This document shows positions 9,445 to 28,998 of a stretch of 64,000 bases of DNA, one piece after another. The stretch comes from Spirochaetales bacterium. GTDB lineage: Bacteria > Spirochaetota > Spirochaetia > DSM-2461. The position numbers and the translations under genes were made by a program. Each line of letters opens with the position of its first letter. Position 1 is the stretch's first letter. The notes beneath the pieces were generated by a model. That model saw nothing but the letters and a program-made list of their open reading frames with translations. It was not told the origin of the DNA and did no database searches. The stretch covers positions 1-64,000 of the forward strand of contig JAFGXR010000020.1 of NCBI GenBank assembly GCA_016936555.1. The letters run 5' to 3'.

Positions 9445-9891
9445 CTATCCGGCCATGCCGAACCGCTTGAAGTAGTCAAACCATTTCTGCTCGGGGGTCT
9501 GGATTTTCAGAAGATCCTCCATGGATTCCTTTTCATCGACTTTTTTCTCAATGACTCTGTACATATGGAGAAGGTTCGATGATTTGATATTTCCTCCGCA
9601 GTGTATAAAGACCTTTTCCCCTTCCAGTCCATCGAGAATGGATGAAAACATTTTGTAATGACGGTCTCTCAAATTGGAGCAGTCTACGGGAAAGTGAACG
9701 TAATCCATTCCAAGCCCTTCGACCAGGCCCCCTTCTCCGGGAAGAAAATTGGGAGTCGATTCAGGGGAAATATTAACAACAGCTGTGTAGCCTTCCCTTT
9801 GAAGCGCTTTAATTCCTTCAACGCCGGGCTGGGCCCCTGTCGCGAAATTTTCATCGTGTTTGAAAAAACGGGGCAATTCTCTATTATCCAT
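9445..9891 (-). CDS. Dual-specificity phosphatase-like protein with altered active loop
   Basis: 148 residues with the layout of a small bacterial protein tyrosine / dual-specificity phosphatase: an early beta strand 'TAVVNISPES', the general-acid region 'VHFPVDCSNL', and the phosphate loop after 'VFIHC' with Cys98. The loop reads 'HCGGNIKSS'. The arginine that should follow at the sixth position (CX5R) is serine (104), and the nearest basic residue is Lys103. Either it has very low activity or it works as a phosphate-binding pseudo-enzyme. It stands alone, with an AGAGGT site before the ATG. Confidence 0.65.
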   Translation of the reverse strand: MDNRELPRFFKHDENFATGAQPGVEGIKALQREGYTAVVNISPESTPNFLPGEGGLVEGLGMDYVHFPVDCSNLRDRHYKMFSSILDGLEGEKVFIHCGGNIKSSNLLHMYRVIEKKVDEKESMEDLLKIQTPEQKWFDYFKRFGMAG

Positions 9892-10126
9892 ATCGCTAAC
9901 CTCTAATCAATAATTTCTTATACATTATTTACTCTATATATAACAAAGTGCATATATAAAGTAAAGTATATCTCCTGTTATTCCGTAAAAATTCCTGCAG
10001 ATTATATTTTTCATTAGTGCAAAAATAGTATATTCTGAATGTCTGACAATTAGTGTTTCGTTTTACGAATTCTATCGTTCGCAATATATGTCCATATATC
10101 GGATGAGTCTCATACAGGAGTTTTTT

Positions 10127-12741: not shown

Positions 12742-13887
12742 TTATATTACAGCCAGTTCTTCAACCGTTTCCCTTAACGTTCCAATAAAGGAATCGATCT
12801 CCTCTGCTGTTGTATCTCTTCCTATTGAGACGCGGACCGAAGAGAATGTGATTCTCCTGTCGAATCCCATGACTGTCAGGGCTGCGGTCCTGCTTTTCTT
12901 GTTGGTCGAACAGGCTGATCCGGTGGAAATGGCATATCCTTTTTCGTCAAGGACTCTGGCAAGAACTTCTCCCGGTACGGGCGGGAAGGAGAGAGAGAGT
13001 ATGAAATCGCAGTAGTTATCCCTTTGGAGAACTCTTTCCGGGGGAATTATTTCCGCGTTCGGTATTGACGTTATCCCCTGGAGCAGCGAATCCATCAGGA
13101 CTTTCATTTTCCCGGGATCTTCTTCCAGCGAGAGTTCAAGGGCTTTCGTCATGGATGCGATTGATGCCAGATTTTCCGTTCCAGGACGCATGCCCCTCTC
13201 CTGACCGCCTCCCAGAAAGAGAAACTCCCGGTCTTTTTTCAGATAGAGCATTCCGATCCCCCTCGGTCCTCCGAATTTATGGGCGCTGAAGGAGGCGCTG
13301 TCCACATCATATCTCTGAAGATCGACGGGGATTTTTCCCAGAGCCTGAACCATGTCGGAGTGGAAGTGGATGGGGCGGCCGTATTCTTTTTCCGCTTCCC
13401 TTGCGACTGCGATCAGCTCTTCCAGCGGCTGAATGACTCCCGTCTCATTATTAAGAAGCATGACGAGAATCATTCTCGTTTTATCGCTGATCGCTTTTTT
13501 GAGCTTTTCCGGTCCGATGATACCCGCCCGGTCGGGATTAAGCATTTTGACTTTAGCTCCCAGCTTCGCCATATTCTGAACGGGCAGTCCCGCGGCGGGA
13601 TGCTCCATGCCGCAGATCACGATTTCACCTTTGTCCCTCGCTTTTACAAGAGAGTAGACCATCATGTTATTGGATTCCGATCCGCCTGATGTAAAGATAA
13701 GCCGGTCCGGTTCGCAGTTCAGCAGCGCGGCGCATTTCCCCCTGGATTCGTTAAGGAGCTGTTTCGCTCTCCGACCCGGCGTATGAGCAGAGGAAGGATT
13801 GCCGTATGTGTCTTTCATCGTATCAGCCATGACGTCAATGGCTTCCTGGTAGGGGGGCGTCGTGGCTGCCCAGTCTAGATATATCAT
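12742..13887 (-). CDS. Cysteine desulfurase (NifS/IscS family)
   Basis: 381 residues from the ATG at 13887, where the family opening 'MIYLDWAATTP' begins. A longer TTG-started version would overlap the divergent regulator's promoter. It removes sulfur from cysteine to build Fe-S clusters. The PLP lysine is in 'SFSAHKFGGPRGIG' and the sulfur-carrying cysteine in 'STGSACSTNKK' near residue 330. No iscU or nifU scaffold follows. It could supply sulfur for nitrogenase clusters, since the nif cluster lacks its own nifS and nifU, but it is more than 20 kb away. The divergent ArsR-type gene is its likely regulator. Confidence 0.88.
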   Translation of the reverse strand: MIYLDWAATTPPYQEAIDVMADTMKDTYGNPSSAHTPGRRAKQLLNESRGKCAALLNCEPDRLIFTSGGSESNNMMVYSLVKARDKGEIVICGMEHPAAGLPVQNMAKLGAKVKMLNPDRAGIIGPEKLKKAISDKTRMILVMLLNNETGVIQPLEELIAVAREAEKEYGRPIHFHSDMVQALGKIPVDLQRYDVDSASFSAHKFGGPRGIGMLYLKKDREFLFLGGGQERGMRPGTENLASIASMTKALELSLEEDPGKMKVLMDSLLQGITSIPNAEIIPPERVLQRDNYCDFILSLSFPPVPGEVLARVLDEKGYAISTGSACSTNKKSRTAALTVMGFDRRITFSSVRVSIGRDTTAEEIDSFIGTLRETVEELAVI

Positions 13888-13919
13888 AGGTTTATAATAA
13901 TACCTTGAATAAAACTTGT

Positions 13920-13941
13920 ATATATCGCAATTATGATATAT
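13920..13941. promoter_or_regulatory. Inverted repeat between desulfurase and ArsR-type gene (candidate operator)
   Basis: ATATATC-N8-GATATAT, a perfect 7-bp dyad centred between the divergent starts at 13887 and 13953. AT-rich dyads of this size are typical operators of ArsR/SmtB regulators. Confidence 0.55.
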
Positions 13942-13952
13942 GATTTCCAATT

Positions 13953-14240
13953 ATGGAAAAATGCTGTTCAGTTGAAGAATTAGAAGACTTCGCACAGAAG
14001 TTGAAAGTTTGCGGTCATCCTCTCCGTCTTCAGATTCTCCTTTTAATCGAAAGAGAAGATGCCTGTGTTTCAGACCTGTGGAAATGTCTGGAGTTACCGC
14101 AGCCTGTTATTTCCCAGCATCTGGCAGTTCTGAAGGATAGAAATATAGTCGAATCGGAAACCGACGGCAATAGAAGAATCTACAAGATCATCGACCCTTT
14201 TGTTCAGAAAATCATCCAGGGTTTTGAAGTGGACGAGTAA
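13953..14240 (+). CDS. ArsR/SmtB-family transcriptional regulator, cysteine-rich
   Basis: 95 residues, the typical size. The winged helix is clear: 'HPLRLQILLLI', recognition helix 'LPQPVISQHLAVLKD' and wing 'SETDGNRRIYKI'. It carries cysteines at residues 4 and 5, about 18, and two more in 'ACVSDLWKCLELPQ', just before the recognition helix. ArsR-type metal sensors and persulfide sensors of this family use cysteines in this region. Being divergent from a cysteine desulfurase, it may respond to sulfide, persulfide or metal and adjust Fe-S sulfur supply. The ligand is unproven. Confidence 0.8.
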   Translation: MEKCCSVEELEDFAQKLKVCGHPLRLQILLLIEREDACVSDLWKCLELPQPVISQHLAVLKDRNIVESETDGNRRIYKIIDPFVQKIIQGFEVDE

Positions 14241-14368: not shown

Positions 14369-15922
14369 ATGAAACGATTAACCATAGCATTAAATGCGCT
14401 TCTATTTTTTACGAATTTGTATTCCAATGAACTCATTCATTCCGATTATGATAACTATTTCAAATATCTTGAATTAACCGGAAGAGCGGAACCCGGGTTT
14501 ATCTCCTATCAATCTTTCTCAAACAATATATGGATTTATGAAGAATCAGAAAATCCCTGGATGAAAAGACTGGAGAGGGACAGAGCCTTTTACTCGAATG
14601 ACAAAATCAGCCTGGAACTTCAGGATCCGGAACTGTTATTGACGGCAAACAGTTTTAATCAGTACGGTAAGAACGATGGTGCCATGTGGCAGGGAAAAGG
14701 GCTGAACGGCCGGCTTCAGGCCGGTATAAGTTTCAGGAGCAAATTCGTCGATATAACCTTCTACCCTCAGATATGGTTCGCCCAGAACCTGGAATATGAG
14801 ATCCTGCCGGGAATAAACCCCAGCCCCTATTCCTCTTTTTTCGGCAATATTGATCTGGCTCAGAGAATGGGGGATGAACCTCTTTTTGAGTTCGATTTTG
14901 GTCAGACGGATATCCGTTTCAATTTCTGGAAGTTCACTTTCGGTTTTTCGACGGAGGAAATCTGGCTGGGGCCCGGGCGGATCAATGGACTCATTTTAAG
15001 CAACAACAGTGCCGGGTTGCCCCATTTCGATTTGGGTTTTAAAAAAATCGATACAAAAATCGGTTCTGTGGAGGGTAGATTTCTCTGGGGGCTTCTCCGC
15101 GAATCGGACTATTTCAATGATGATTCTTCCGACGATCTCAGACTGTTCTCTTCCGCCTCGATCGCCTGGAATTTTGTCTGGATTCCCGGTTTCAATATCG
15201 GCTTGAACTGGTCAGCCCAGACGCCGGGAGGGAATTTCGAAGCCCGGGATTTTTTTGTCATCCCCCTGACTTTTCTAAGACAGGCTGAGAGTAATGAAAC
15301 GAATGACAACGATCAGAAATACTCCATTACCCTGGACTGGAAATTTCCCGATTCGGGTTTCGAGTTTTACGGCGAGTTCGCATTTGAGGACTTCAACGGA
15401 GGGGGTACCCACACACCCGATCATACATTGTTCTACACTCTGGGCGGATTTTATGTCGTTCCCTTCAGTCAGCAGCGCGGCTTTATTGTCAATTTTGAAC
15501 ACACCAATATGGGCGTGAGCGACAGCCAGGAACTGATATGGGATACTCAGGCAACACCTGACTATTACACCCATCACAGAGTTGTCCACGGATACGGGAA
15601 TCTCGGCCAGGTTCTCGGAGCTTCGATCGGTCCCGGATCGGACAGTCAGTTCGGTTCCCTCACGTATTATGATTTCTGGGGATCCGCCGAGTTATTCGTC
15701 ATGAGGCACAATAAAGACAAGACTTATATATACAACGATGTCAATAATGATACCGGTATGATCAATGTCGAACTGAGTTTCGGGCTTAACGGTTTGATTT
15801 TCCTCGGCCCCTTTGACCTCAATGCCGGTTTTGTTGTCGTATCGGAGATTTCCAATTTGTATATTGAGGGAAATGATGAATGGAATTTCCACGGAGAACT
15901 GGGCTTGAGATACAGGTACTGA
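14369..15922 (+). CDS. Wzi-like outer-membrane barrel (capsule/exopolysaccharide assembly)
   Basis: 517 residues with a signal peptide (about 1-19) and alternating aromatic strands to the C-terminal 'LGLRYRY', as expected for a large beta barrel. The stretch near residues 200-230 ('LGPGRINGLILSNNSAGLP') matches the Wzi hallmark region. Wzi proteins hold capsule polysaccharide at the cell surface. It is the first gene of a plus-strand run with gtrA-like, GT2 and GT4 genes, its TGA overlapping the next ATG by one base. A second member of the same family is encoded at 27244-28998. Confidence 0.75.
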   Translation: MKRLTIALNALLFFTNLYSNELIHSDYDNYFKYLELTGRAEPGFISYQSFSNNIWIYEESENPWMKRLERDRAFYSNDKISLELQDPELLLTANSFNQYGKNDGAMWQGKGLNGRLQAGISFRSKFVDITFYPQIWFAQNLEYEILPGINPSPYSSFFGNIDLAQRMGDEPLFEFDFGQTDIRFNFWKFTFGFSTEEIWLGPGRINGLILSNNSAGLPHFDLGFKKIDTKIGSVEGRFLWGLLRESDYFNDDSSDDLRLFSSASIAWNFVWIPGFNIGLNWSAQTPGGNFEARDFFVIPLTFLRQAESNETNDNDQKYSITLDWKFPDSGFEFYGEFAFEDFNGGGTHTPDHTLFYTLGGFYVVPFSQQRGFIVNFEHTNMGVSDSQELIWDTQATPDYYTHHRVVHGYGNLGQVLGASIGPGSDSQFGSLTYYDFWGSAELFVMRHNKDKTYIYNDVNNDTGMINVELSFGLNGLIFLGPFDLNAGFVVVSEISNLYIEGNDEWNFHGELGLRYRY

Positions 15923-16332
15923 TGAATAAAAGAGAAGCATTCGCAGCGTCCTTTCGGGAGATGTTCAGATTCGGACTTGTGGGAATATCCAATACACTTG
16001 TGACTCTTTCCATCATTTTTATTCTGACGAAACTTTTTGCCGTCTCCTATGTCACTGCCAATGCAATTGGTTATGCGGCCGGTTTGATAAATAGTTTTCT
16101 CCTGAACCGGAACTGGACATTCCGGAGCAGGGGCCATGTCGGAAAGCAGTCTTTCAGGTTTCTCTTCGTTTTTCTTATCTGTTACGGCTTCCAGCTGGCC
16201 CTGCTTATTATCCTGCGGGAAATTCTGTCCATCAACCCCGATCCGGCGCAGCTTGTCGCCATGATTTTTTATACGCTGCTGAACTATGTTTTAAATAAAT
16301 TATTCACTTTTGGAAAGGCGGATAGACCATGA
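15922..16332 (+). CDS. GtrA-family membrane protein
   Basis: 136 residues with four predicted membrane helices. Family marks are 'FGLVGISNTLVTL' in helix 1 and 'NFLLNR.WTF' type residues (here 'NSFLLNRNWTFRS') after helix 2, ending 'NYVLNKLFTFG'. GtrA proteins are thought to flip or present lipid-linked sugar for a partner GT-C transferase. The start at 15922 overlaps the upstream stop by one base. The next gene, a GtrB-type GT2, is the usual partner. Confidence 0.85.
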   Translation: MNKREAFAASFREMFRFGLVGISNTLVTLSIIFILTKLFAVSYVTANAIGYAAGLINSFLLNRNWTFRSRGHVGKQSFRFLFVFLICYGFQLALLIILREILSINPDPAQLVAMIFYTLLNYVLNKLFTFGKADRP

Positions 16333-17258
16333 CAATCAGTTTGATCATTCCCTGCTACAATGAAGAGGAAGTCATAAAAAATTCTCATGAGAGAATATCC
16401 TCTGTTCTGAAGAGCTGTGATTTCGAGTCTGAAATTCTCTATATCAACGACGGCAGTAAAGATTCTACATTGGGAATTCTGGAATCGATCGCTGCGGAAG
16501 ATCCCGGGGTCCGCGTTCTTTCGTTTTCGCGGAATTTCGGTCATCAGCCGGCCGTCGCTGCGGGCCTGGAGAAATGTGCCGGTGATGCCGCCATAATCAT
16601 GGATGCCGATATGCAGGATCCTCCGGAATTAATTCCGCAGATTGTAGAAAAATGGAAGAATGAAAATGTAAACAGCGTTTATATGGTCAGAGCCGCCAGA
16701 TCCGGCGAATCCCTTTTCAAAAAAGCGACAGCAGCGCTTTTCTACAGATTGATTAATTGGATTTCCGAGGTGGATCTGCCTGTTGATACGGGTGATTTCC
16801 GGCTGATAGATCGTCTCATGATAGATGAGTTTAACAAGCTTGAAGAGAGAAAAACCTATATCAGGGGATTAATGACCTGGGTCGGATTCGATCAGGTTCC
16901 CATGTATTACGAAAGAGATCCCCGTCTGGCCGGTGAAACAAAATATCCCTTGTCCAAAATGATCCGTTTTGCCATGAACGGGATCATGTCTTTCACTAAA
17001 AAACCGCTCCAGTTGGCGACTCATCTGGGTTTGCTCAATATCCTGGTGGGGCTAGGGCTGGTCCTCTATGTCTTTATATCCCGTTATTCATCGCGGATTG
17101 AAACTGTACCCGGCTGGGCGTCCATCATGATTGTCATCATTTTCTTCGGCGGCGTTCAGCTGCTCTGTCTTGGATTATTGGGTGAATACCTCGGGCGGGT
17201 TTTTGATGAAGCTAAAAAAAGGCCTGACTATATCATTCAGAGGACCATTAACCTGTGA
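16329..17258 (+). CDS. GtrB-type polyprenyl-phosphate glycosyltransferase (GT2)
   Basis: 309 residues. The catalytic GT2 domain covers about 1-220: 'SLIIPCYNEEEVI' at the start, 'ADMQDPPE' with the metal-binding Asp residues near 95, and a 'GDFRLIDR' segment. Two C-terminal membrane helices (about 230-290) follow, the GtrB/DPM1 layout. It should load a sugar onto undecaprenyl phosphate for later transfer. It overlaps the gtrA-like gene by four bases and the next GT4 gene by four bases, so the three are co-translated. Confidence 0.85.
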   Translation: MTISLIIPCYNEEEVIKNSHERISSVLKSCDFESEILYINDGSKDSTLGILESIAAEDPGVRVLSFSRNFGHQPAVAAGLEKCAGDAAIIMDADMQDPPELIPQIVEKWKNENVNSVYMVRAARSGESLFKKATAALFYRLINWISEVDLPVDTGDFRLIDRLMIDEFNKLEERKTYIRGLMTWVGFDQVPMYYERDPRLAGETKYPLSKMIRFAMNGIMSFTKKPLQLATHLGLLNILVGLGLVLYVFISRYSSRIETVPGWASIMIVIIFFGGVQLLCLGLLGEYLGRVFDEAKKRPDYIIQRTINL

Positions 17259-18313
17259 AAATTGTTATCGATGCCAGAATGATAGAAATGTCCGGTATCG
17301 GAAGATATCTCAGAACTCTTTTACCGGTATTGCTGGATATTAAAGAAGTCCGTGTCACATTGCTGGGCAGCCTGAAGGAACTGGATAGATATAAATCTGA
17401 TTATGTGGAGATTAAAGAAATCAGATCTAAAATATATAACCCTCTTGAGCATGTGGAACTGGCGCTGAAAATCCCCGAATGCTATGTGTTTTTTTCTCCC
17501 CATTTCATCACGCCTCTTTTTCCCGTAAGAGCTAAAAAACGGATAACGACAATCCACGATTTATTTCATCTATCTGAGTATTCAGAATTTGGTTTTCTAA
17601 AGGAAAAGTATCTTCATTTTCTGTTTCGAAATGCGGTGAGGAAAACAGATCGGATTGTAAATGTCTCCGCTTCCACGGAAAATCATTTGTGGAGTTTATT
17701 CCCGGAATCAAAAGGAAAAACAACGGTAATCTATAACGGCATCGATAGGGACCTCTTTTCAGAATCAAATCTAAATAGACCGGATACCTCTCCGTATATC
17801 TTATTTGTGGGCAACATAAAAAAGCATAAGAACCTCCACAGGCTCGTACAGATCTTTTCGGAACCCGAATTATCAGGGCTGAAACTGATTATTGTAGGAG
17901 ACAGAGATAATTTCAGAAATGGAATTAAGGATTTTGATAACTTAACTGATAGGAACAATAATATTTTCTTTACGGGGAAAGTATCAGACAATGAATTGAT
18001 CGCTTACTATGCCTATGCCGGTTTTCTGGTTTTCCCCTCTTTATTTGAAGGGTTCGGATATCCTCCGCTGGAAGCTCTTTCCTGCAATACGCCGGTTATC
18101 GGATCCGATATTCCAGTTTTAAGAGAGATCTGCGGCGATTCCATGTTCTATTTCAACCCGCTGGACAGTGAAGATATGAAAAAGAGAATTCTGGAGTTTG
18201 CTTCAGATCCGGATCTTCAGAAACGATGTCTCGCGTCGAAGGAGAAATACCTTCAAAGATGCACAATTGAGAACTTCAGAGAACAGCATGTTGCTCTCTT
18301 TACGGAATGGTGA
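17255..18313 (+). CDS. Glycosyltransferase family 4
   Basis: 352 residues in the GT-B fold: an N-terminal Rossmann domain ('MSGIGRYLRTLLP' acceptor loop) and a C-terminal nucleotide-sugar domain with 'LFVGNIKKHKNL' and the donor-binding 'EGFGYPPLEALSC' motif. It likely adds a hexose such as mannose to the lipid-linked glycan. It ends in a 14-base tail-to-tail overlap with the membrane protein on the other strand. Confidence 0.85.
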   Translation: MKIVIDARMIEMSGIGRYLRTLLPVLLDIKEVRVTLLGSLKELDRYKSDYVEIKEIRSKIYNPLEHVELALKIPECYVFFSPHFITPLFPVRAKKRITTIHDLFHLSEYSEFGFLKEKYLHFLFRNAVRKTDRIVNVSASTENHLWSLFPESKGKTTVIYNGIDRDLFSESNLNRPDTSPYILFVGNIKKHKNLHRLVQIFSEPELSGLKLIIVGDRDNFRNGIKDFDNLTDRNNNIFFTGKVSDNELIAYYAYAGFLVFPSLFEGFGYPPLEALSCNTPVIGSDIPVLREICGDSMFYFNPLDSEDMKKRILEFASDPDLQKRCLASKEKYLQRCTIENFREQHVALFTEW

Positions 18314-19655
18314 GTAACAGTATCTCGCTTTTTTCGCCGTTGAATTCTATCTCACCTACTTTAATCCTCTTTGTAAAGCGATCGGGTACAGGAATATCTT
18401 TTTCTCTGAAATTATCATCTATTATGAGATAGCACGTCTCTATCTCCGGATGATCATTCAAAGACATAAAATGAAAGTAATCTCTCTCCATAAAAGCGTA
18501 CCATTCGTTACCTCCGCCGAATACGGGAAGGTTCTCGTCGGTAATAAGATTCTGCAGCTTCGCTGAATAACTGCTCAATGGCTCGGGCTGCCGGTTATGT
18601 TCGATTCTGATTATGTGCTGAGGTGTATATAAGAGAAAAAACAGAAAAAGGATCACCATGGCTTTGTTCAATCTGGTAGCCACCAGAACAGCCATATAGA
18701 GAAAAACCGGATAGGCGAATACGGCATAGTTGTGGTTTGCTCTGGGAAGAATGATGCTCTGGAGAATGGCTCCCGCTAAGAGGAATATCAGAAGCTTTTC
18801 TGTTTTATACATTTTAAGAGCCACAAAAATCACGAACATCGAAAGGAATACAATTAAATCGACCAGATGCCTATGTCCGGTGGAATAGAGAAAGTAATAA
18901 AGCAGATAGTTTTTTACGGCATCGGTGATTGAATCTGACAATTCGCTGCCGAGAGAGGAGAATGCGCCATAATGGAGAAAAATATAGTACAGGGCTCCCA
19001 GCGCAATCCCTGAAATGAAAATAAAGAGATCACGGATAAGACGTTTTTTATCGTCTTTGTAATAAGCGAGCGTACTGAGAAAATAGGCAAAGGAATATAT
19101 GAACGCAGAGAGCCCCATGGGATGAGTTTCAAACGCAATCATTCCCGTAAGAGCTGAAAAGAAAAACCTCTTATCCATAAAAAGGTAGAGAGACAGACTC
19201 GCAAAGAAGAAAGCAAAGGCATCGGACCTGGTTTTATTGGCCATCGAGAGGAAAGGTTCTGCGATCAGAAAGAGAAGAACCAGAAACGCGAGCTGCTTTT
19301 TATCGAGGCCGATTTTCCTGAAAATGAAGTACCAGAGGACGATGGAGGCATAAACAAAAAAAGAAGAAATACCGTGGGCGGTAATCTTGGTCCAGCCGAA
19401 TATATTGAAGACCGCGCTGTACACTCTGGCATAGGTTTTCCCGAAAAAGGCGACGCCACCGACTTCACCCGTTCTGAAAACCGAATCATATTCATAACCC
19501 TTTTCCGTGTAGCTGTATATAAAGGAGTGTGACCAGGCGTCATCGATGTCATCGGAAAGATAATTGTTAAACATAAATATATGGATGAGAATGGCCGCTG
19601 CAAAAAGGGAATAGTGCAACAATCTGTAGTTCTTTTCAGTTTCCGATATTTTCAT
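18300..19655 (-). CDS. Multi-spanning GT-C-like membrane protein
   Basis: 451 residues with about ten hydrophobic helices and a soluble C-terminal tail of about 90 residues. The first loop after helix 1 contains 'LSDDIDDAWS', an acidic motif like the catalytic Asp pair of GT-C (ArnT/PMT-like) transferases that use polyprenyl-phosphate sugars. With the gtrA-gtrB pair next door it is the natural candidate for the third, transferring partner, although it is on the opposite strand. A Wzy-type polymerase is the alternative. No ribosome site stands out. Confidence 0.6.
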   Translation of the reverse strand: MKISETEKNYRLLHYSLFAAAILIHIFMFNNYLSDDIDDAWSHSFIYSYTEKGYEYDSVFRTGEVGGVAFFGKTYARVYSAVFNIFGWTKITAHGISSFFVYASIVLWYFIFRKIGLDKKQLAFLVLLFLIAEPFLSMANKTRSDAFAFFFASLSLYLFMDKRFFFSALTGMIAFETHPMGLSAFIYSFAYFLSTLAYYKDDKKRLIRDLFIFISGIALGALYYIFLHYGAFSSLGSELSDSITDAVKNYLLYYFLYSTGHRHLVDLIVFLSMFVIFVALKMYKTEKLLIFLLAGAILQSIILPRANHNYAVFAYPVFLYMAVLVATRLNKAMVILFLFFLLYTPQHIIRIEHNRQPEPLSSYSAKLQNLITDENLPVFGGGNEWYAFMERDYFHFMSLNDHPEIETCYLIIDDNFREKDIPVPDRFTKRIKVGEIEFNGEKSEILLLTIP

Positions 19656-19709
19656 AGAATGAATGGTATAATAAAATGTTTAAGATGAGAAGGATAATAT
19701 AATTTAGAA

Positions 19710-20714
19710 ATGACAACATATTCATTAATTGTTACATACGGCAATCGATTTGCCTTATTGGAAAAAACAATCAGCGCCTGCCTAAGCGAAGGTATAGGAA
19801 GAGTCGTCGTTGTCGATAACAATTCAGACAAGGAAAGCCGCGCACAGTTACAGAATCTGGAAGCAGAATCCCCCGTGATAACGGTACTCTATCAGGACCG
19901 TAATCTGGGGTCTGCCGGAGGATATAAGAAAGGCCTGGAATACATTCGCAGCTCCTGTTCCGACTGTGACTTTATATGGCTTCTCGATGATGATAACAAA
20001 CCGGTTGAAGACTCCCTGCGGCAATTGAAAGATTACTGGCAGGCCAATAATCTGGATTATCATAAAACGGCTCTGATGTCTTATCGTCCGGACCGCACCG
20101 CCTACCGCATTGCCATTCGCAGGGGAAACCCCGATTATGTTCTCGAAAGGCCCGACAGTTTCTGGGGATTCCATTTGCTCAGTATCCTCGGTAAAGTCAT
20201 TCGCGTTCTTAAGCGGAGGATGGGTAAAACCTTATATCGCGAAAATGAAGCAATACGCTCCGGCCAGATATCAGTCGCCACTTACGGTGGAATGTTCTTT
20301 CATAAATCCCTTCTTGATACGATCGGTTATCCTGATGAGGACTATTACCTTTATGCGGACGATCATCAATGGAGCTACAGGATAACAAAGAGAGGGGGAG
20401 CTATTTTTCTTCTGCTCGACAGCGTTCTGGAGGACATCGACAGGTCCTGGAATGTTCGGGATAATACTAGCACGGTGTTCGATGTCATCGGGAAAGGTTC
20501 GGGGTTCCGAATATATTATACGGTTCGCAATCGAATCCTCTTCGAAAAAGAGAATCTGGTTCAGAAATATCCCTTATACAGATTGAATCTCTTCCTTTTT
20601 GAGACAATTTACCGATTGATTTCCCGGAAAAAAGGGTACGGTAATCGCGAAATCCTGAGAAGGGCGATTTCTGACGGATTAAAGGGAGTGAAAGGAAAAG
20701 TGCCGGATCTCTAA
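19710..20714 (+). CDS. Glycosyltransferase family 2 (galactofuranosyl/rhamnosyl-transferase-like)
   Basis: 334 residues with the GT-A features 'IVTYGNRFALLEKT', 'VVVDNNSD' and the metal site 'DFIWLLDDDNKP' near residue 92. A long 'YLYADDHQWSYR' acceptor region near 215 is typical of the GlfT/rhamnosyltransferase branch. There is no membrane helix. It is transcribed alone between two opposite-strand genes, converging on the flippase gene with a 14-base gap. Confidence 0.8.
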   Translation: MTTYSLIVTYGNRFALLEKTISACLSEGIGRVVVVDNNSDKESRAQLQNLEAESPVITVLYQDRNLGSAGGYKKGLEYIRSSCSDCDFIWLLDDDNKPVEDSLRQLKDYWQANNLDYHKTALMSYRPDRTAYRIAIRRGNPDYVLERPDSFWGFHLLSILGKVIRVLKRRMGKTLYRENEAIRSGQISVATYGGMFFHKSLLDTIGYPDEDYYLYADDHQWSYRITKRGGAIFLLLDSVLEDIDRSWNVRDNTSTVFDVIGKGSGFRIYYTVRNRILFEKENLVQKYPLYRLNLFLFETIYRLISRKKGYGNREILRRAISDGLKGVKGKVPDL

Positions 20715-20728
20715 GCGTTGAACCCCTG

Positions 20729-22174
20729 TCAGATTTTCCCTACTTTCTTTTTCACCAGGGACAGGATATGCATAGCCGTTGATTCCTTCAGTAACGTGAG
20801 CGCTGTTCCGTAGAGAAAAAAGCATATTCCAACTGATAATAAAACCAGGAATACGGGATTCAGATTCAATTTTCCCAGATAAAATACAACGGGAAGAAAT
20901 AAAAGAGATGCCAGAGGGTATATGAGATGCTTTATACTCAATATTTTTATTCTCTTTTTATAGCTCACCATTATCAGAAGAAAAAGACAGAGGCTCAGCT
21001 CCGACGTTAAGGTTGCAAGGGCCGCGCCCAGATTTGAATAAATGGGAATGAGGACCAGGTTTAAAATGAAATTCACTGCAGCGCCTAATACGTAGGCGCG
21101 TAGAACCATTTTCTCTTCATTCATGGGGATCAGGATCTGGAGGCTTAACATCTGGCTGATTCCGACAATGGGAATAAGAGCAGATAAGACTATCATCGTA
21201 TTGCCGGCGGAGAGAAAACCGGAACCGGAAAAGAGAAGCAGAATTTCTCTGGCCAGGAGAATCAGACCTGCTGCCGAAGGGACGGCAACGAACAGAATTC
21301 CTGAGACGGATTTTTGAATTGTCTCATAGAACTCCTTCATCTGATTCTTTTCCTTGTAATAGGATAGTCGGGGGATTAGGACTGTCGTGATTGTCGTTAC
21401 GAGAACGATGATGATTCTGTTTATTTTTATAGCTGAATTGTATAACCCGACAGAGATATCGCTATCGAGAAAACCCAGCATGACCGAATCGAGATTCTGA
21501 AATACGGTTGTCGAAACGCTGAGAACGCTGAAGAGAATGACAGGTTTTAAATGGGCTTTCAAATCAGCCGCCTTGAAGCTGAAATCCAGATATCTCCAGC
21601 TCATAATACAGTTCAGCAGAGAATCGCCCAGATAAAGAAGGACGAAAATCAGAGCGTATTTGTCCGTGTCCTCCTTGGTTTTTACAAGGAGCAGGAGTCC
21701 CGCAATTGAAACCACTTTGACAATAACGCTTCGTATAGCCACCTTTTGAAACGCTTCCAGGCCGTTGAAGAACCAGTCGATTGTAAAAACCGATAAGAAA
21801 ATGCTTATGCCGAAATATGAAAAAATAACTCTGGACGAGGCGAACCGAGGGATGGAAAATACGAGAAAGAAATAGAGTGCCGAAGAGAAGAGGGCAAAAA
21901 CAGAACTCAGCACGATAAGCTGTGTAAATGTTTTTTTCAGCGATGGTAAATCATCTCTTCTCTTTGCTATCTCTCTTATCCCGTATATCGGGATCCCCAG
22001 TGTCGCAATCATGATAAAATACTGTGAAAAGGATTTTGCAAAGTTTACCTGACCGATTCCTTCAGGTCCAAGGATCCTCGATGCATAGGGAAAGGTTACC
22101 AGCGGAAAGAGAAGCATGGTCAATTTGTAAAGAAAGGTGAACAGGAAATTACTGCGTAATGAATTCTGACTCAT
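20729..22174 (-). CDS. Polysaccharide repeat-unit flippase (Wzx/RfbX type)
   Basis: 481 residues, about 12-14 membrane helices. The N-terminal sequence 'LFPLVTFPYASRILGPEG' is characteristic of the RfbX branch of the MATE/MVF superfamily. It should move lipid-linked repeat units across the inner membrane. It is the last gene of the minus-strand glycan operon, overlapping the upstream GT4 gene by four bases. Confidence 0.88.
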   Translation of the reverse strand: MSQNSLRSNFLFTFLYKLTMLLFPLVTFPYASRILGPEGIGQVNFAKSFSQYFIMIATLGIPIYGIREIAKRRDDLPSLKKTFTQLIVLSSVFALFSSALYFFLVFSIPRFASSRVIFSYFGISIFLSVFTIDWFFNGLEAFQKVAIRSVIVKVVSIAGLLLLVKTKEDTDKYALIFVLLYLGDSLLNCIMSWRYLDFSFKAADLKAHLKPVILFSVLSVSTTVFQNLDSVMLGFLDSDISVGLYNSAIKINRIIIVLVTTITTVLIPRLSYYKEKNQMKEFYETIQKSVSGILFVAVPSAAGLILLAREILLLFSGSGFLSAGNTMIVLSALIPIVGISQMLSLQILIPMNEEKMVLRAYVLGAAVNFILNLVLIPIYSNLGAALATLTSELSLCLFLLIMVSYKKRIKILSIKHLIYPLASLLFLPVVFYLGKLNLNPVFLVLLSVGICFFLYGTALTLLKESTAMHILSLVKKKVGKI

Positions 22175-23370
22175 CTCTCAGATAAGACCTTTCCATAGAG
22201 TTCCAGATGTTCCGCTATAATCACTTCGGGAAGAAACCGCCTGGAAGATTCCAGACATTTTTGTCTCATTTCCTCTCTCTTCTCTCCGGTCTGTATCTTC
22301 CTGATCCGTTCTATAAGCTGCGATTCATTATCGGGATCTATGGAAAAACCGTTTTGACCTTCTTCGATCATTTCGGGAATGCCTCCCCGGTTTGAACCGA
22401 TGACAGGTACACCGTAGCTGAAGGATTCCAGAACAACCCGTCCCAAAGGTTCATGCCATTGGGATAGAACCAGAAGAACATCTATCCGGGGAAAAAAATC
22501 CTCCGGCTTTACATGACCTGAAAATTCAACCTTCAGATCTTTTACTTTGCTCTTTAGCGACTCTAAATAATCCGCATCCCCATCCCCGGCAATATAAAGC
22601 TCTGTATTATTATCTCCCAGAGTTCTCAGGGCGGATATGGCCACCTCAATTCCTTTGGTCGGATGAATCCTTCCGAAATATCCGAGTTTCAATACTCCGC
22701 TCTTCCGTGGCTCAGACTCGTGAAAACCGGATTCCGCCGGTCTTCCGTAAGCATTGAAAATCCTTTTTCTGACGGTGGCCCTGCTGAAAAAATCATATGA
22801 TAAATGACGATTCAATACAAAATCGCTTATGCCGATGACCGCATTTACATGGCGGGACACAATTTTCTGGGGAAATGAGAAGGCTGCACAAAGAGTGCAC
22901 TGATTCTCGCAATTACGTCCATTTTTGAACATTGTCGCATTGGGGCATAATAATTTATATCCCCTCAGTGTGTGGATTACCGGTATGGACAGTTTTTGGG
23001 CAACCTCCCAGGCCGAGACGGAAAAACCATCGAGAGCCTGGGAATGAATGAGATCCGGTTTCTCCTCAATCAGAATCTTTTTCAAACTGAAACCCATAAA
23101 TGGGTTGTAGATATCCAGTAAATGCCAAAGAGCCTTTTTGATTTTGCTCTGCGGTTTTGAAGGAGGAAACCAGTACATATTCCAGAGTCTGATTTTCCTG
23201 ATATCAACACCGTTGAGCCTGTAGTTCTCCTTTTCGCCGGTTCTGCTGGTTGAGACGACAGTGACTTTATGACCGCTTCGGGCCAGTCCTTCAGCAAGAA
23301 ACTGGGTCGATTTGTCGCCCCCGCCATGTATATCAGGATAATATCTGGCATTAATGATCAGAATTTTCAT
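22171..23370 (-). CDS. Glycosyltransferase family 4
   Basis: 399 residues. An N-terminal 'DIHGGGDKSTQFLAEGLARSG' acceptor loop and a C-terminal donor domain 'LGYFGRIHPTKGIEVAI' with 'SYGVPVIGSNRGGIPEMI' place it in GT4. A four-cysteine patch near 137-148 ('CPNATMF..CENQCTLC') is the cysteine cluster of a known GT4 subgroup and may bind metal. It overlaps both neighbours by four bases and belongs to the seven-gene minus-strand operon. Confidence 0.85.
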   Translation of the reverse strand: MKILIINARYYPDIHGGGDKSTQFLAEGLARSGHKVTVVSTSRTGEKENYRLNGVDIRKIRLWNMYWFPPSKPQSKIKKALWHLLDIYNPFMGFSLKKILIEEKPDLIHSQALDGFSVSAWEVAQKLSIPVIHTLRGYKLLCPNATMFKNGRNCENQCTLCAAFSFPQKIVSRHVNAVIGISDFVLNRHLSYDFFSRATVRKRIFNAYGRPAESGFHESEPRKSGVLKLGYFGRIHPTKGIEVAISALRTLGDNNTELYIAGDGDADYLESLKSKVKDLKVEFSGHVKPEDFFPRIDVLLVLSQWHEPLGRVVLESFSYGVPVIGSNRGGIPEMIEEGQNGFSIDPDNESQLIERIRKIQTGEKREEMRQKCLESSRRFLPEVIIAEHLELYGKVLSER

Positions 23371-24455
23371 TTCTCAGTATTTCTGGACCGGATAAAGGAA
23401 TCAAGTCTGTTTCGAAATTCATAGTTCGAAAAGCGTTCGGCGTGCTTTCTTATCGCTGCAGAATCGAAGACCATGTTCTCAAATCTCAGAATTCCTTCTT
23501 TCATGGAGCTGACTGTCTGTTCCGTAAAAAAGACACCTGTTTTACCGTCCTCTATCGAGTCGAGAACCCCGCCGCTTCCATAGGCTATTACCGGACGACC
23601 GCAGGCCTGTGCTTCGAGAGGAGTAATGCCGAAATCCTCAAATCCGGGGAAAAGAAATGCTTTGCAGCGCTGATAATAATCTCTGGACTCAGAATCAGAA
23701 AGACGCCCTTTGAACTCAACCGTGGGACTTGCGATTTTCTTCAGGTCTTTTTCCAGTGGCCCGGCTCCGATTATAACCAGTTTCCGTTTCAGTTCATTGC
23801 AGGACTTAATAGCCAGGTCAATCCGTTTGTAGGGTATGAGCCGCGATAATATCAGGAAAAACTCTTCCGCCTCTTTTCCGTTCGGTTCAAAAAAATCCGT
23901 ATCGACAGGCGGGTGGATTACTTCGGCTTCCCGTCTGTAGACCTTCAGGATTCTTCTCTTTACGAGATTGGAGTTGGCTATGAAATAATCCACTCTCATG
24001 GCGCTCAGGGCATCCCATTGGCGAATCCGGTGCATCGTTTTTTTCATAGCGGTTCTCGTTATAAACCCCGATGATTTCATATAATCGTGATAAAGATCCC
24101 ATGCATATCTCATGGGAGTATGCACGTAGGATATATGGAGAGTGTCTGCTCTGGTTATAACGCCTTTCGCGCAGGAGGAGGAACTGCTTATGACCAGATC
24201 GTAATCTGATAAATCGAAACTTTCAAAAGCTCTCGGCATCAGGCTGAGCATTTTTGTATAGAATTTCCCGGAAAAAGGGATCTTCTGCATAAAGGAAGCA
24301 TGAACCTTTTCAGGGGGAAAAAAACGGGCCATATTTTTTTCGTTATACACAGTCGTAAAGATGTCGGCTTCGGGAAATAGCTTCAGAATCTGTTCTACAA
24401 CTCTTTCCGATCCGCCGTATATTGTCAGCCACTCATGGACAATTGCGACTCTCAA
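23367..24455 (-). CDS. Glycosyltransferase family 4
   Basis: 362 residues. The N-terminal 'VHEWLTIYGGSERVVEQI' and 'YVHTPMRYAWDLYHDYM' elements are typical of a GT4 subgroup found in O-antigen and exopolysaccharide loci. The C-terminal domain has 'FLILSRLIPYKRIDLAI' and 'FGITPLEAQACGRPVIAYG'. The acceptor and donor cannot be read from sequence. It overlaps the downstream GT4 by four bases and abuts the MraY-like gene. Confidence 0.85.
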   Translation of the reverse strand: MRVAIVHEWLTIYGGSERVVEQILKLFPEADIFTTVYNEKNMARFFPPEKVHASFMQKIPFSGKFYTKMLSLMPRAFESFDLSDYDLVISSSSSCAKGVITRADTLHISYVHTPMRYAWDLYHDYMKSSGFITRTAMKKTMHRIRQWDALSAMRVDYFIANSNLVKRRILKVYRREAEVIHPPVDTDFFEPNGKEAEEFFLILSRLIPYKRIDLAIKSCNELKRKLVIIGAGPLEKDLKKIASPTVEFKGRLSDSESRDYYQRCKAFLFPGFEDFGITPLEAQACGRPVIAYGSGGVLDSIEDGKTGVFFTEQTVSSMKEGILRFENMVFDSAAIRKHAERFSNYEFRNRLDSFIRSRNTEK

Positions 24456-25520
24456 CTATAACTCCTTTTTGCTGTAATGCAGATACAGAAAAAAGATAAT
24501 GACAATAATCCAGGAACATAGAATTATGAAGTAGTTCTCTCGTCCCGATGACTCGAATACAATTACGGAAACCCCCATGATGATACATAGGCCATAAATA
24601 ACCGCCAGTATGTTTCGAACACTCAAGCCTAAATTCATCATTTTGTGGTGAAGATGAAACCTGTCGGGACTGAATATGTTTCTCTTTTCCCTTTTCCTCC
24701 GCCAGATAGCAGCTACGACATCGAGAATCGGAATGAGCAGCATTGTGAGGGGCATGACCAATGAAGTCGATTCTCCCGTAAAGGCCGCTATCGGCAACAG
24801 GGCGAGAATAAAACCGAGAAACAAACTGCCCGAATCCCCCATGAAGATTTTTGCGGGAGGGAAGTTGAAAAAAAGATACCCGAAAAGCGATCCGATCAAA
24901 GCATAAATAATAATGGCGGGAAGCAATTGCCCGTAAAGGAGGAAAACAAAACCATATACAAGAGATGCTATGATACTGATTCCCGATGATAACCCGTCGA
25001 CTCCGTCTATCATGTTGATTGCATTGGAAATGCCTACAAGCCAAAGGATCGTCACCGGTACCGCGAGCAAACCGAGCTCAAGTGAAACACCGGAAAAAGG
25101 TATCTGTATCCGCTCTATTTGAGCGCCGCCGGCTACAACCAGTATTGAAGCGATAAATTGCCCCAGAAGTTTATAGCGGGCTCTGATTTGTGCAAAATCG
25201 TCAAGAACCCCGATAATGAAAATAACAACCAGGCTAAGAGCCAGCAAAAGGATGCTGAGCTGTGGATTGCTGAATAAAGTCAGATCGCCTGAAATCATTC
25301 TGACCAGAGCAGGTGATATCAGGGCAGATATGAAAAAGGAGACAAAAATCCCGATGCCTCCGAGACGGGATGTGTTTTCCGTATGTACTTTGCGATGGTT
25401 TACTTCATCATATAAACCATGCTTATGAGATAGATATATAAGAACAGGGGTCAGATAGAGATTCAGCAGGAATCCGATTGCCAAAGAAATCCCTATAACC
25501 AGTATTATCGTATTGTCCAA
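24456..25520 (-). CDS. WecA/TagO-type polyprenyl-phosphate GlcNAc-1-phosphate transferase
   Basis: 354 residues with about ten membrane helices. Family marks in order: 'RKVHTENTSRLGGIGIF', the catalytic 'GVLDDFAQIRARYKLLGQ', 'NAINMIDGVDGLSSG', 'FMGDSGSLFLGF' and the 'DRFHLHHKMM' loop that separates WecA/TagO from MraY. It primes glycan assembly by placing a HexNAc-1-phosphate on undecaprenyl phosphate. The same operon also holds a WbaP/WcaJ-type priming enzyme, so two unrelated initiators coexist. Confidence 0.88.
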   Translation of the reverse strand: MDNTIILVIGISLAIGFLLNLYLTPVLIYLSHKHGLYDEVNHRKVHTENTSRLGGIGIFVSFFISALISPALVRMISGDLTLFSNPQLSILLLALSLVVIFIIGVLDDFAQIRARYKLLGQFIASILVVAGGAQIERIQIPFSGVSLELGLLAVPVTILWLVGISNAINMIDGVDGLSSGISIIASLVYGFVFLLYGQLLPAIIIYALIGSLFGYLFFNFPPAKIFMGDSGSLFLGFILALLPIAAFTGESTSLVMPLTMLLIPILDVVAAIWRRKREKRNIFSPDRFHLHHKMMNLGLSVRNILAVIYGLCIIMGVSVIVFESSGRENYFIILCSWIIVIIFFLYLHYSKKEL

Positions 25521-25569
25521 GTTTTTCGCCTCAGTTTATTGTATTTAAAATATAAATGTTCACGGACTT

Positions 25570-27243
25570 TTATTCCAGAACCAAGTTCCCCGATCTGTTT
25601 TTTAATCCATCTATTTCGTTGAACAATTCTTCTCTCTTGTATCTTTTTCCATGGTAGATAATATCGTTTTCAAGTGAAAGATTTCCCGAAGCATCGGGAA
25701 AGAGAATTTCCCCCATCGTATTGATGACGGAGCCTCTTCCCGATGAAAACAGAATAGAGGGTGCGATATCCAGAAAGCTGGCTATCCTGGAACTCTCCAT
25801 ATAGTTTATACCGGAGGGACTTATAATGATAAGTGGTATATATTCAAATAGATGGTCGTCTTTCCAGTTCATTGAACCGTTTGTGGAAAAAGAAGGTTCA
25901 TCGATTCCGACCGTGTGGTCTCCATAGATAAATAAGTAGGTTCCGGGATACTCTTTCTGAACTTTTGTGATAAAGTCTCCCAAAGCCCTGTCCACATAGG
26001 AGAATGTCAGCATGTAATTCCGGACATTTTTATTCTCGATTTTATCCAGGATCGGATGACTGTAATAAAGAGGTACATTCGTAAAAGGACCGTGGCTGCT
26101 CATCGTTATGTGGTGGAAATAAAAAGGCTCTTTTTCTTCTCCCATCTTTTTCAGCATGAAATCATAGACATTTTCATCAGGTGCCCCCCAGCCGACTTCA
26201 TTCAGTTTCATATTGCCGAGCTCCCAGAATTGGTCAAATCCGACTTTACGCAGATTCACGAATCTATTATAGAAACCGCCTTCATTTCCATGAAAGGCAA
26301 GTTTTGAGAAACCGGACAGTTTCTTTACAAATGAATTGGGATATTCATAGATCGAGAACTGGGCAGCCGGAAATCCGCTGATTGCTTCGACTGAGTTGAA
26401 AACGGAAAATTCCGCATCGGAGGAATTTCCTGTTTTATGCTGGGATAAGAGATAGGGAAAGTAGATGTTATTTCGGGCCGCATCATTGAGAAAAGGCATA
26501 ATTTCAACGCCGGAGTACTCAAGCCCGATCAGATCAGCATTCAGGGATTCGACCTGGATTGATATTATATTGCTGAGGTGATCCTTTTCCGGGATTTCCA
26601 GAGGTGGTCCGTACTCAATTTTATCAATATACTCCAGTTCATTAATGGTCAGATCATATATCTGGGAATACAGTGTCCCGTACTTGCAGTTTCTTCTTAT
26701 ATGGGAGCTGAATTTGATTGCATCGGGAGTGAAGTAGTCCATCCTGTAAAAAACGTACAGAGACATCAATCCGACGAGGGGTACCAGGATTATTGATAGA
26801 GGTAACAATCGAAGCCTGATCTTTGTATAGAAGCGCAGAAGGACAATAACAGGTATCAGATCGATAAGCGGGAGATAGAGCCGGGGATTATTAATGATTA
26901 TGCTCAGAGAGCCTATGGCCCGCAGCCCCTCAAAAAAACTGTAAATAAACTGCGGAAGTGTGAGAAGCTGTCCGGAATAAAGATAATAAGCCGCATGTAT
27001 GGATAAGTAGAGAGTCTGAATAATATAAGCGGCGGCTATAAAGCTTTTTCTTTTGAAGACAAAGGCAATTCTCCAGAAAAAATAGAGAAATAAAAAGTTT
27101 TTCAGAATGATCTGATAGACTTTGGTATAGGCTCCCTGAGTGATGATCCATTGAATTCCTGTTAACTTGACGGTATTGGCTATGATAAAAAGAAGAAACA
27201 GAATTTCTATAGGGAATGAGATTTTTCTTAGATATTTCAGCAT
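25570..27243 (-). CDS. LtaS-like alkaline-phosphatase-superfamily membrane enzyme
   Basis: 557 residues. Five N-terminal membrane helices (to about residue 170) precede a periplasmic sulfatase-fold domain with 'ISIQVESLNADLIG', 'HHITMSSHGPFTN' and 'LFIYGDHTVG', the metal-site motifs of lipoteichoic acid synthases and phosphoglycerol transferases. The nucleophile region reads 'KTGNSSDAEF'. LtaS has Thr before the 'SD' pair, so here the likely nucleophile is Ser. It probably adds phosphoglycerol or phosphoethanolamine to the glycan made by this operon. It starts one base after the Wzi-like gene ends. Confidence 0.8.
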   Translation of the reverse strand: MLKYLRKISFPIEILFLLFIIANTVKLTGIQWIITQGAYTKVYQIILKNFLFLYFFWRIAFVFKRKSFIAAAYIIQTLYLSIHAAYYLYSGQLLTLPQFIYSFFEGLRAIGSLSIIINNPRLYLPLIDLIPVIVLLRFYTKIRLRLLPLSIILVPLVGLMSLYVFYRMDYFTPDAIKFSSHIRRNCKYGTLYSQIYDLTINELEYIDKIEYGPPLEIPEKDHLSNIISIQVESLNADLIGLEYSGVEIMPFLNDAARNNIYFPYLLSQHKTGNSSDAEFSVFNSVEAISGFPAAQFSIYEYPNSFVKKLSGFSKLAFHGNEGGFYNRFVNLRKVGFDQFWELGNMKLNEVGWGAPDENVYDFMLKKMGEEKEPFYFHHITMSSHGPFTNVPLYYSHPILDKIENKNVRNYMLTFSYVDRALGDFITKVQKEYPGTYLFIYGDHTVGIDEPSFSTNGSMNWKDDHLFEYIPLIIISPSGINYMESSRIASFLDIAPSILFSSGRGSVINTMGEILFPDASGNLSLENDIIYHGKRYKREELFNEIDGLKNRSGNLVLE

Positions 27244-28998
27244 CTAATTCTCCGGGAAAATATGAATCTTAAGGCCGAGAATGTTTTTGATTCTCAGGTT
27301 CCCGTCGATGTTGTCATAATTGTCAGCCCTGGCAAATGAGTAATCGAATTCAAATGTAAGAGGTAGAATATCCATTTCATAGGCTATGCCGAGAGTCGCC
27401 ACATGTATCTTTTCATAGACTCCATCGTTCAAGAAGTCTTTATCGTCGTAACTGTTATAGGCATGAGCCGGTTCTTCACCGTCTCCTCCGGAATAGAGAT
27501 CTCCTTCCATTTCGCCTTCTTCGAAATTCCCTTCGCCATGGCGAATGTATTTATAGCTTATAAAGGCGGATATTCCTCTATATGGCATAGTGTGCACTTT
27601 GAAAAGGAATTCATCGGAGTTCGGAGGCAGGTAGTAGCCGAGATTTTCACCGTCATTCATCCAGTTGATATTGTAATAGTACGAACTGTCGAAAAAGGAA
27701 TAATCCTGAGCATAATGAGTATAAGTGTAGGGTTCTATTTTAGTGTACTGAAATAAAGCCATTGTAAAAGGCAATCCGGGAAGAACCCATTTAATGCCGC
27801 CTTGAAGGGCTATTGTTATGGCGGGATCACTGAACAGATCTTCGCTGACCCTGATTTCATCAGCAAAGTATGTACCATACATTTTCACGCTGAAAGGCAA
27901 TGTGAAGGCGAAAGTGAAATCCATGGCGCCGTTATCGTGATCGCCTGTCAGATTCTGAGCGAGAAGAGGCAGTATAAAGGGAGTTAAATAAGCGATCTCC
28001 AGTCTTTTTCCCCATACGACCGAATTGGAAACAGCAAAATAGAACCAGTCAAATGGCATCAGTTCAAAAAACTGTGTGGTGAACATGCTCTGGGCGATCA
28101 TTTCATCATCTTCCAGAACATTGTTATCATTCGTATCAGCCTGTCTTATGGCGCCGGCAAACCAATCTTCAAGAGAACCTGTAGAGTAGTGGAAGCTGAA
28201 CCATTTGGAAGGTCGGAAATCAAGATCCAGGCCATTGTATGGTCTCGCCGTTTTTGACAGGGTCAGATTCCCGTCGCCGTTTCCCATCTCGCGCCGGTGC
28301 CTGTGCAATTTAATATTTATACTGTTGTCCAGAAAGGCTGTTGATAGCTCGGGGTTCAACAGGACATTGAAAGATCTGCCATCATCATCGCCGTCTTTCA
28401 GTCCTCCCCCGTCGAGACCTCCGGTGCTTATATAATAACCGTCCGCCACCTTCGTGTATTCATAGGGGGCGAAAGCATCGGAATGGATATTATTGACTCC
28501 GACGCCGAGCCTGATATCATAGGAGAGAAATGACAGGATGTCACCCTGCATGAACCATTCCATCATATTGGTACTGTGAAAATTTCCCGCATTGAGATCC
28601 GATCTCATTTCAAAGTCGAATATCGATCCGAATGCCATAGGGTAGGGACTGTTTTCCTCTGCATTGAAGTTGATTTTGCCCTGATCGATTATATTCAACA
28701 GGCTCAGCGTTGTATCGTCGGGTAGATATTTTTCCAGTTCGGAGTCCAGAACAGTCTGTTCCGCCGCACTGAGGCGGCTTCTTTTTCCATCAATTTCCTG
28801 AAGGAGCGACAGAATATAGGCTCTGGAATACGGTCTCACCTGCGATAATCTGGTAACCAGGCCTTTCACCTCCGCCATTTCGAGGAGTTTATAAACAGGC
28901 TGATCCAGTTTTACCGATAGATACGATTGGCTGTGAATGCTTTGAAAAGTCAAAAGGAATAAAAAGACAAATATGACATGTTTATAATTAATAGGCAT
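27244..28998 (-). CDS. Wzi-like outer-membrane barrel, second copy
   Basis: 584 residues from the ATG at 28998, chosen because a signal peptide ('NYKHVIFVFLFLLTFQSIHS') starts there. A TTG four codons earlier is possible. The N-terminal helical segment 'PVYKLLEMAEVKGLV' with 'VRPYSRAYI' is the usual periplasmic plug of capsule-assembly Wzi-family proteins, followed by barrel strands to the end. It lies between the LtaS-like and priming-transferase genes. It shares its family, but little recognisable sequence, with the barrel at 14369. Confidence 0.75.
   Translation of the reverse strand: MPINYKHVIFVFLFLLTFQSIHSQSYLSVKLDQPVYKLLEMAEVKGLVTRLSQVRPYSRAYILSLLQEIDGKRSRLSAAEQTVLDSELEKYLPDDTTLSLLNIIDQGKINFNAEENSPYPMAFGSIFDFEMRSDLNAGNFHSTNMMEWFMQGDILSFLSYDIRLGVGVNNIHSDAFAPYEYTKVADGYYISTGGLDGGGLKDGDDDGRSFNVLLNPELSTAFLDNSINIKLHRHRREMGNGDGNLTLSKTARPYNGLDLDFRPSKWFSFHYSTGSLEDWFAGAIRQADTNDNNVLEDDEMIAQSMFTTQFFELMPFDWFYFAVSNSVVWGKRLEIAYLTPFILPLLAQNLTGDHDNGAMDFTFAFTLPFSVKMYGTYFADEIRVSEDLFSDPAITIALQGGIKWVLPGLPFTMALFQYTKIEPYTYTHYAQDYSFFDSSYYYNINWMNDGENLGYYLPPNSDEFLFKVHTMPYRGISAFISYKYIRHGEGNFEEGEMEGDLYSGGDGEEPAHAYNSYDDKDFLNDGVYEKIHVATLGIAYEMDILPLTFEFDYSFARADNYDNIDGNLRIKNILGLKIHIFPEN

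Follow-up and report, generated by a model that had tools for sequence, protein, structure and literature searches.

A small ArsR-family regulator, encoded next to a cysteine desulfurase in a spirochaete genome, probably acts as an autoregulated repressor of a thioredoxin/glutaredoxin regulon in Spirochaetota, with putative binding to a shared operator and a putative thiol-reactive signal. Its gene lies in the window – the whole stretch of 64,000 nucleotides that was analysed, contig C42 of a 4.73-Mb genome (G000). A pair of TATATA cores spaced 16 bp apart recurs in the promoters of regulator orthologues, is associated with genes of the thioredoxin system and is conserved among relatives. The wider reading that this suggests is of a spirochaete thiol-redox regulator with an operator of its own, a switch for the thiol balance of the cell and not for one enzyme.

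According to the available part of an array study of Treponema denticola, thioredoxins are oxygen-induced in this organism, whose genome has no OxyR homologue, and the regulator was left unidentified (PMC2965109). The control of thioredoxin genes in spirochaetes appears to be an open question, which a regulator, an operator and a list of targets make testable. Among the literature matches listed, no title or abstract opening describes such a regulon in spirochaetes.

The divergent locus and its candidate operator

As the sequence-only reading had described, the desulfurase (minus strand) and an ArsR-type regulator (plus strand) are divergent, with a perfect dyad between their starts (Table 1). 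The list of open reading frames puts the desulfurase start at a TTG (13950), which is too long and would run through the dyad; the ATG at 13887 (first residues MIYLDWAATT) agrees with where the family match begins, and with this start the intergenic region is 65 bases long. The enzyme contains an STGSACST loop and an SAHK lysine, which we take to be its catalytic motifs, and its best NCBIfam match, TIGR03402, reaches 305.4 bits, below the cut-off of that model (530.75). The TATACA hexamer of the desulfurase promoter predicted by a consensus scan (its –35 element) shares bases with the dyad's left arm.

Table 1. Features discussed in the text, in window coordinates
Feature	Position	Strand	Remarks
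148-aa protein, resembles Blh N-terminal domain	9445–9891	–	candidate co-regulated gene
Exact TATATA-N10-TATATA site, the window's second	9937–9958		centre 56 bp from start of 9445–9891 (–)
Cysteine desulfurase (class V aminotransferase, NifS/IscS-like)	12742–13887	–	PF00266 235.4 bits (cut-off 21.5)
Intergenic region, 65 bp	13888–13952		65/65 identical in sister species G002
Promoter-like pair TATACA-17-TATTAT, for desulfurase	13894–13922	–	consensus scan; not evidence of function
Dyad ATATATC-N8-GATATAT, ATATATCGCAATTATGATATAT	13920–13941		case of TATATA-N10-TATATA operator
ArsR/SmtB-family regulator (P0002), 95 aa	13953–14240	+	NF033788 74.0 bits (cut-off 55), PF01022 48.9 bits (cut-off 22)
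aroB (3-dehydroquinate synthase)	31942–33012	+	about 17.7 kb from regulator; without site

Taken alone, the dyad is not significant, because dinucleotide shuffling of the 65 intergenic bases yields arms of at least 7 in 430 of 2000 cases. It is itself the sole exact match in the 4.73-Mb genome, where matches with up to two mismatches hardly rise above the reversed control (42 forward vs 37); inside the window, matches with up to three mismatches number 12, against 3.1 expected. What gives the dyad weight is its conservation, together with the recurrence of 16-bp-spaced cores in relatives. A run identical between the window and G002 (13862–13987, 126 bp) spans the intergenic region; by comparison, identity is 76.5% for nifS DNA, 84.8% for the regulator gene and 50% for the DNA downstream. 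In G001, a third member of the genus, the bases differ, yet two TATATA-like cores still lie 16 bp apart. Pure chance, with which the 65 bp alone would be compatible, is made unlikely as the whole story by this conservation and recurrence. Exact ATATATC/GATATAT half sites were rejected as a family motif, as they occur in 6 of 85 regulator promoters with 4.1 expected.

The operator itself emerged from the upstream regions of 85 regulator orthologues, the window's own included, that were left after removal of near-identical ones. TATATAGT is abundant in these promoters (23 vs 0.8 expected), and the single palindrome TTACTATATAGTAA, although enriched, served only as a lead to a spaced pair. Pairs of TATATA peak at a spacing of 16 bp, with exact pairs in 4 of 78 promoters (0.0 expected) and, when one mismatch per core is allowed, in 14 of 78 (2.2 expected and at most 6 in any shuffle set); the side peaks at 14 (12/78) and 18 (10/78) are such as a core with a period of 2 would give. 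This spacing differs from that usual between the –35 and –10 elements of a promoter. At a width of 22, the single-palindrome and spaced-pair models fit about equally well (log-likelihoods of 164.5 and 164.2). The dyad that the sequence-only reading had picked out turns out to be one case of a recurrent operator, TATATA-N10-TATATA, with its cores 16 bp apart and one mismatch in one of them. A first matrix was built from 14 regulator-promoter sites (12 of the 14 from the spacing analysis, plus those of the window and G001); at a score of at least 13, it detects only 20 of 90 regulator promoters, the training ones included.

Thioredoxin-system genes as probable targets

For trxA and trxB, families were chosen by protein match and their upstream regions scored at the same matrix threshold of at least 13. 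Of 33 genomes with the regulator, 20 have a site before trxA, where shuffles predict 0.39, and of 8 genomes without it, 2 have one (0.06 expected); the test covered the 42 best places, with G007 dropped for its short upstream region and with four regulator genomes that have no close trxA (G015, G021, G029 and G040) left unscored. Upstream of trxB, across the 30 best places, the corresponding figures are 8 of 25 (0.16 expected) and 0 of 5. As a control, 225 other open reading frames (150 aa or longer) were taken from 42 loci of the regulator or nifS; the threshold is reached before just one of them, which is itself divergent from a regulator gene.

Within the genus of the window, exact TATATA-N10-TATATA sites stand before thioredoxin in 4/4 genomes, glutaredoxin in 3/4 and trxB in 2/4, as well as before an Acr3-like permease and a Blh-domain-like gene (2/4 each). 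In the window's own genome, the candidate operators of trxA, trxB and glutaredoxin are at C113:43753–43774, C43:12291–12314 and C109:14349–14370. The Blh-domain-like gene, named for a sulfur transferase/dioxygenase, is the one at 9445–9891 in the window, and in G002 the equivalent of the neighbouring site lies 57 bp from the same gene; its product matches the Blh model NF040641 over the N-terminal domain with an E-value of 9.8e-10 but far below cut-off (37.9 of 625 bits), and PF22741 with 28.3 bits (cut-off 27). When the 64 kb are scanned with a second matrix, derived from trxA and trxB sites outside this genus that the first matrix had selected, the dyad comes 6th–7th among all positions, which makes it the third best separate place after 9918–9959 and 25532–25557.

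Raw site counts were abandoned as a way to delimit the regulon, since they came close to their controls – 31 CTATAT-N12-ATATAG sites vs 30 of the reversed pattern over 61 genomes, and 11 TATATA-N10-TATATA sites vs 9 in the window's own genome – and the signal was carried by the contexts. These were labelled by eye and not blind, with ten proteins checked by further analysis. Thirty of the 31 CTATAT-N12-ATATAG sites gave 28 distinct rows. Of these, 9 are coding, 1 is intergenic at a contig end, and the other 18, likewise intergenic, precede genes read as thiol, arsenic or ArsR-type in 13 cases and other genes in 5. The 25 of 30 reversed-pattern sites that were labelled in the same way comprise 15 coding and 10 intergenic ones, one of the latter thiol-related. 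Some TATATA-N10-TATATA sites fall in coding sequence, and several precede genes without a clear thiol role (among them an unnamed gene start in G000:C9 and G002:C8, a Rex gene in G000:C64, and an ABC permease in G000:C67 and G002:C6). Candidate targets seen in single genomes include OsmC, thiol peroxidase, CoA-disulfide-reductase-like, and Acr3-like or ArsM-like genes. The control pattern also led to a gene that looks by eye like glutathione peroxidase (G000:C115, L303) and has a TATATA-rich dyad upstream.

The association of these sites with this particular regulator, as opposed to a paralogue, is modest when judged from genome counts. For trxA, the comparison of genomes with and without the regulator (20/33 vs 2/8) gives a one-sided Fisher p of 0.078, and pooling trxA and trxB (28/58 vs 2/13) gives 0.028, in genomes that are not independent of each other. 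One of the two regulator-less trxA exceptions, G016, is 80% complete, and other genomes of its genus do carry the regulator. In two genomes that lack an orthologue, G027 and G059, a comparable site lies ahead of a different ArsR-type gene, so that a paralogue could bind such sites. CTATAT-N12-ATATAG occurs just upstream of other ArsR-type genes at L242 and L238, in genomes lacking the orthologue, hinting at an operator type common to ArsR paralogues.

The neighbouring desulfurase

With orthologues defined as matches above 90 bits, the regulator is found in 38 of the 61 genomes searched, the window's own included. A genome survey for the gene pair, which the sequence-only reading had called for, finds it conserved: nifS is divergent from the regulator, with no more than 355 bp between the two starts, in 23 of these 38 genomes (own included) and lies further off on the same contig in 7; in the remaining 8, nifS is on another contig or absent, or contig ends intervene. 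A wider set of 80 loci, all with spirochaete names and the best 80 of 297 matches, gives the divergent pair in 27 of 72 loci with enough left flank, aroB within 300 bp behind the regulator in 35 of 72 with enough right flank, and thiI (PF02568), the gene behind nifS in relatives, in 26 of 68 with enough flank. Loci with aroB closely behind the regulator are many (L061, L063, L064 and L067, for example); in G002, aroB lies about 2.7 kb from the regulator, and in the window the intervening stretch (14369–31900) encodes a Wzi-like protein and, as judged by eye, glycosyltransferase-like genes.

The desulfurase is most likely, from gene order, a ThiI partner of the NifZ type and a sulfur donor for 4-thiouridine in tRNA. 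This assignment follows from thiI lying directly behind the desulfurase orthologue in many relatives and from elimination of other desulfurases of the genome: two of them adjoin nifU-like (C100) and selD-like (C103) genes, names given by eye, and a third (C79), the best PF00266 match, was read by eye as SufS. The genome's own thiI is on another contig, C114.

As regards the regulator, the desulfurase is most likely above all an adjacent gene, which in this genus has the operator in common with it. Here the dyad overlies the predicted –35 element, which suggests that the desulfurase is repressed along with the regulator. At chosen loci where the genes are separated from the regulator, a site was found before 0 of 11 nifS, 0 of 11 thiI and 0 of 12 distinct aroB genes. 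Among adjacent nifS genes, 4 of 18 tested have a site scoring at least 13 within 200 bp, and three of these four, all from the window's genus, contributed their sites to the matrix itself. In G037 and G051, both 99% complete, the regulator and aroB are present but a nifS orthologue and a full-length ThiI match are not. The sequence-only reading had envisaged a persulfide- or metal-responsive switch for sulfur mobilisation. Its guess at the chemistry is reasonable, in that trxA, trxB and glutaredoxin as targets fit a thiol- or persulfide-reactive switch; its guess at the target, a role centred on the neighbouring desulfurase, is mostly not supported by these site counts and by the two genomes without the enzyme.

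A candidate cysteine sensor among known systems

The regulator (P0002) belongs to the ArsR/SmtB family, scoring above the cut-offs of both NF033788 and PF01022, and its AF2 model (pLDDT 88.8) is a winged helix with the SmtB/CzrA/SqrR fold. It was expected to be cysteine-rich and has exactly five cysteines (C4, C5, C20, C38 and C45). The last two precede the recognition helix, as had been read from the sequence: in the predicted structure, C38 lies just before helix 3 (39–46) and C45 near the end of it, followed by the recognition helix (50–62), two strands (66–71 and 74–79) and helix 5 (82–90). All 91 regulator sequences have C38, and 88 of them have C45. In 77 of the 91, and in all 24 of alignment A1, there is also an N-terminal cysteine; since it is missing from 14, it cannot be essential in all orthologues. 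Histidines are limited to H22 and H56. With its last cysteine at C45 (a later one occurs in 1 of 24 aligned sequences and in 5 of the wider 91) and its last histidine at H56, P0002 has neither a pair of the SqrR type nor a helix-5 zinc site.

In the mechanism that we infer, a dimer of the regulator would bind TATATA-N10-TATATA over promoters and, with its cysteines reduced, keep its own gene and a thiol-redox set (thioredoxin, thioredoxin reductase and glutaredoxin) low. Oxidation, persulfidation or arsenite at C38, perhaps together with C45 or with the N-terminal cysteine where present, would release the DNA, and the thioredoxin system might then re-reduce the regulator. In this genus, where the operator lies between regulator and desulfurase, the desulfurase is probably co-repressed, and it may feed sulfur to ThiI for tRNA 4-thiouridine. 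A bolder version, against which we lean slightly, would make the protein a Spirochaetota-specific ArsR-type master regulator of thioredoxin and glutaredoxin, in a place like that of OxyR, with its own operator and a cysteine sensor unlike those of SqrR, RexT and the zinc sensors; in this genus, the shared operator would link thiol redox to tRNA thiolation.

Three other explanations account for part of the data. The regulator might be a repressor that responds to persulfide or metal and serves the adjacent desulfurase (and thiI) alone, so that sulfur mobilisation keeps pace with supply, as the frequent divergent pairing (23/38), thiI behind nifS (26/68 loci, from the best 80 of 297 matches) and the dyad over the predicted nifS –35 element would suggest; we consider this quite improbable, given 0/11 sites at separated and 4/18 at adjacent nifS genes, the regulator and aroB persisting in G037 and G051, which have no nifS orthologue or full-length ThiI, and, in that same set of loci, the divergent pair being found in 27/72 vs 35/72 for aroB behind the regulator. 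It is also unlikely, if slightly less so, that the protein is an arsenite/antimonite sensor, with a metalloid bound by the thiolates of C38 and the N-terminal cysteines and with a regulon that would be an arsenic response made up of Acr3-like and ArsM-like proteins, with thioredoxin and glutaredoxin for arsenate reduction. Sites do occur upstream of genes for an Acr3-like permease (G000, G002) and for ArsM-like methyltransferases (G002, G003), with a like site at a contig end in G001, and the cysteines concerned are common (77/91 and 91/91); the family matches on this side both stay below cut-off (TIGR00832, 101.4 bits vs 282.8; NF008823, 193.2 bits vs 263). The wider conservation, however, is seen at trxA and trxB, the families surveyed, and the classical C-V-C is absent.

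There is likewise only a small chance that the TATATA dyads reflect AT-rich promoters or serve a different factor as operator, with the regulator itself acting on an unrelated target. Site counts no higher than reversed controls, a dyad unremarkable within its 65 bp and the existence of regulator-less genomes with similar sites all fit such an explanation; the preferred 16-bp spacing, which is not the –35/–10 distance, the 126-bp block of identity and the contrast between trxA (20/33) and other genes (1/225) argue against it.

Zinc sensors such as SmtB and CzrA have a histidine-containing metal site on helix 5, and classical arsenite-responsive ArsR proteins have a Cys-Val-Cys motif on helix 3. 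The best match of the regulator in both fold (by Foldseek) and sequence is a member of the former group, SmtB of Mycobacterium smegmatis (8qkf), but P0002, with H22 and H56 as its only histidines and no helix-5 zinc site, does not group with these sensors; nor does it have the classical motif, as C38 is followed by V and S, and position 40 is S, T, G or M in all 24 aligned sequences. The sulfane-sulfur repressors SqrR, BigR, YgaV, SoxR and sHdrR use two conserved cysteines (Cys50 and Cys116 in sHdrR) that form a tetrasulfide bridge, according to the part of the source available (PMC12423496). P0002 resembles this group in fold – SqrR and BigR are among its Foldseek matches – and in its candidate sulfur-related targets, but has no cysteine beyond position 45, and it scores 45.3 bits against the BigR model NF040642 (cut-off 155), outside SqrR/BigR membership.

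For the desulfurase, a close parallel is in Bacillus subtilis, where, in the available part of the report, nifZ and thiI are neighbours and s4U8 depends on both (PMC5372739). The spirochaete enzyme is similarly a stand-alone desulfurase that adjoins thiI in many relatives, whereas thiI lies apart from it in the window's genus (G000:C114) and the partnership is a putative one. For the regulator, a further close system is RexT of Nostoc sp. PCC 7120, an ArsR-SmtB sensor of H2O2 that controls the thioredoxin gene trxA2; as described in the accessible part of the paper, it senses through Cys40–Cys41, binds ATTCG-N15-CGAAT and is reset by thioredoxin (PMC8960804). Compared by residue numbers – a plausible register, because the helix at 50–62 and the strands at 66–71 and 74–79 share their numbering as far as that source goes – P0002 differs in having S40–D41 in place of the cysteine pair, C38 and C45 as its cysteines and TATATA-N10-TATATA as its candidate operator. 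What the two would have in common, on the same partial account of RexT, is a small repressor of the ArsR fold with thioredoxin as a target.
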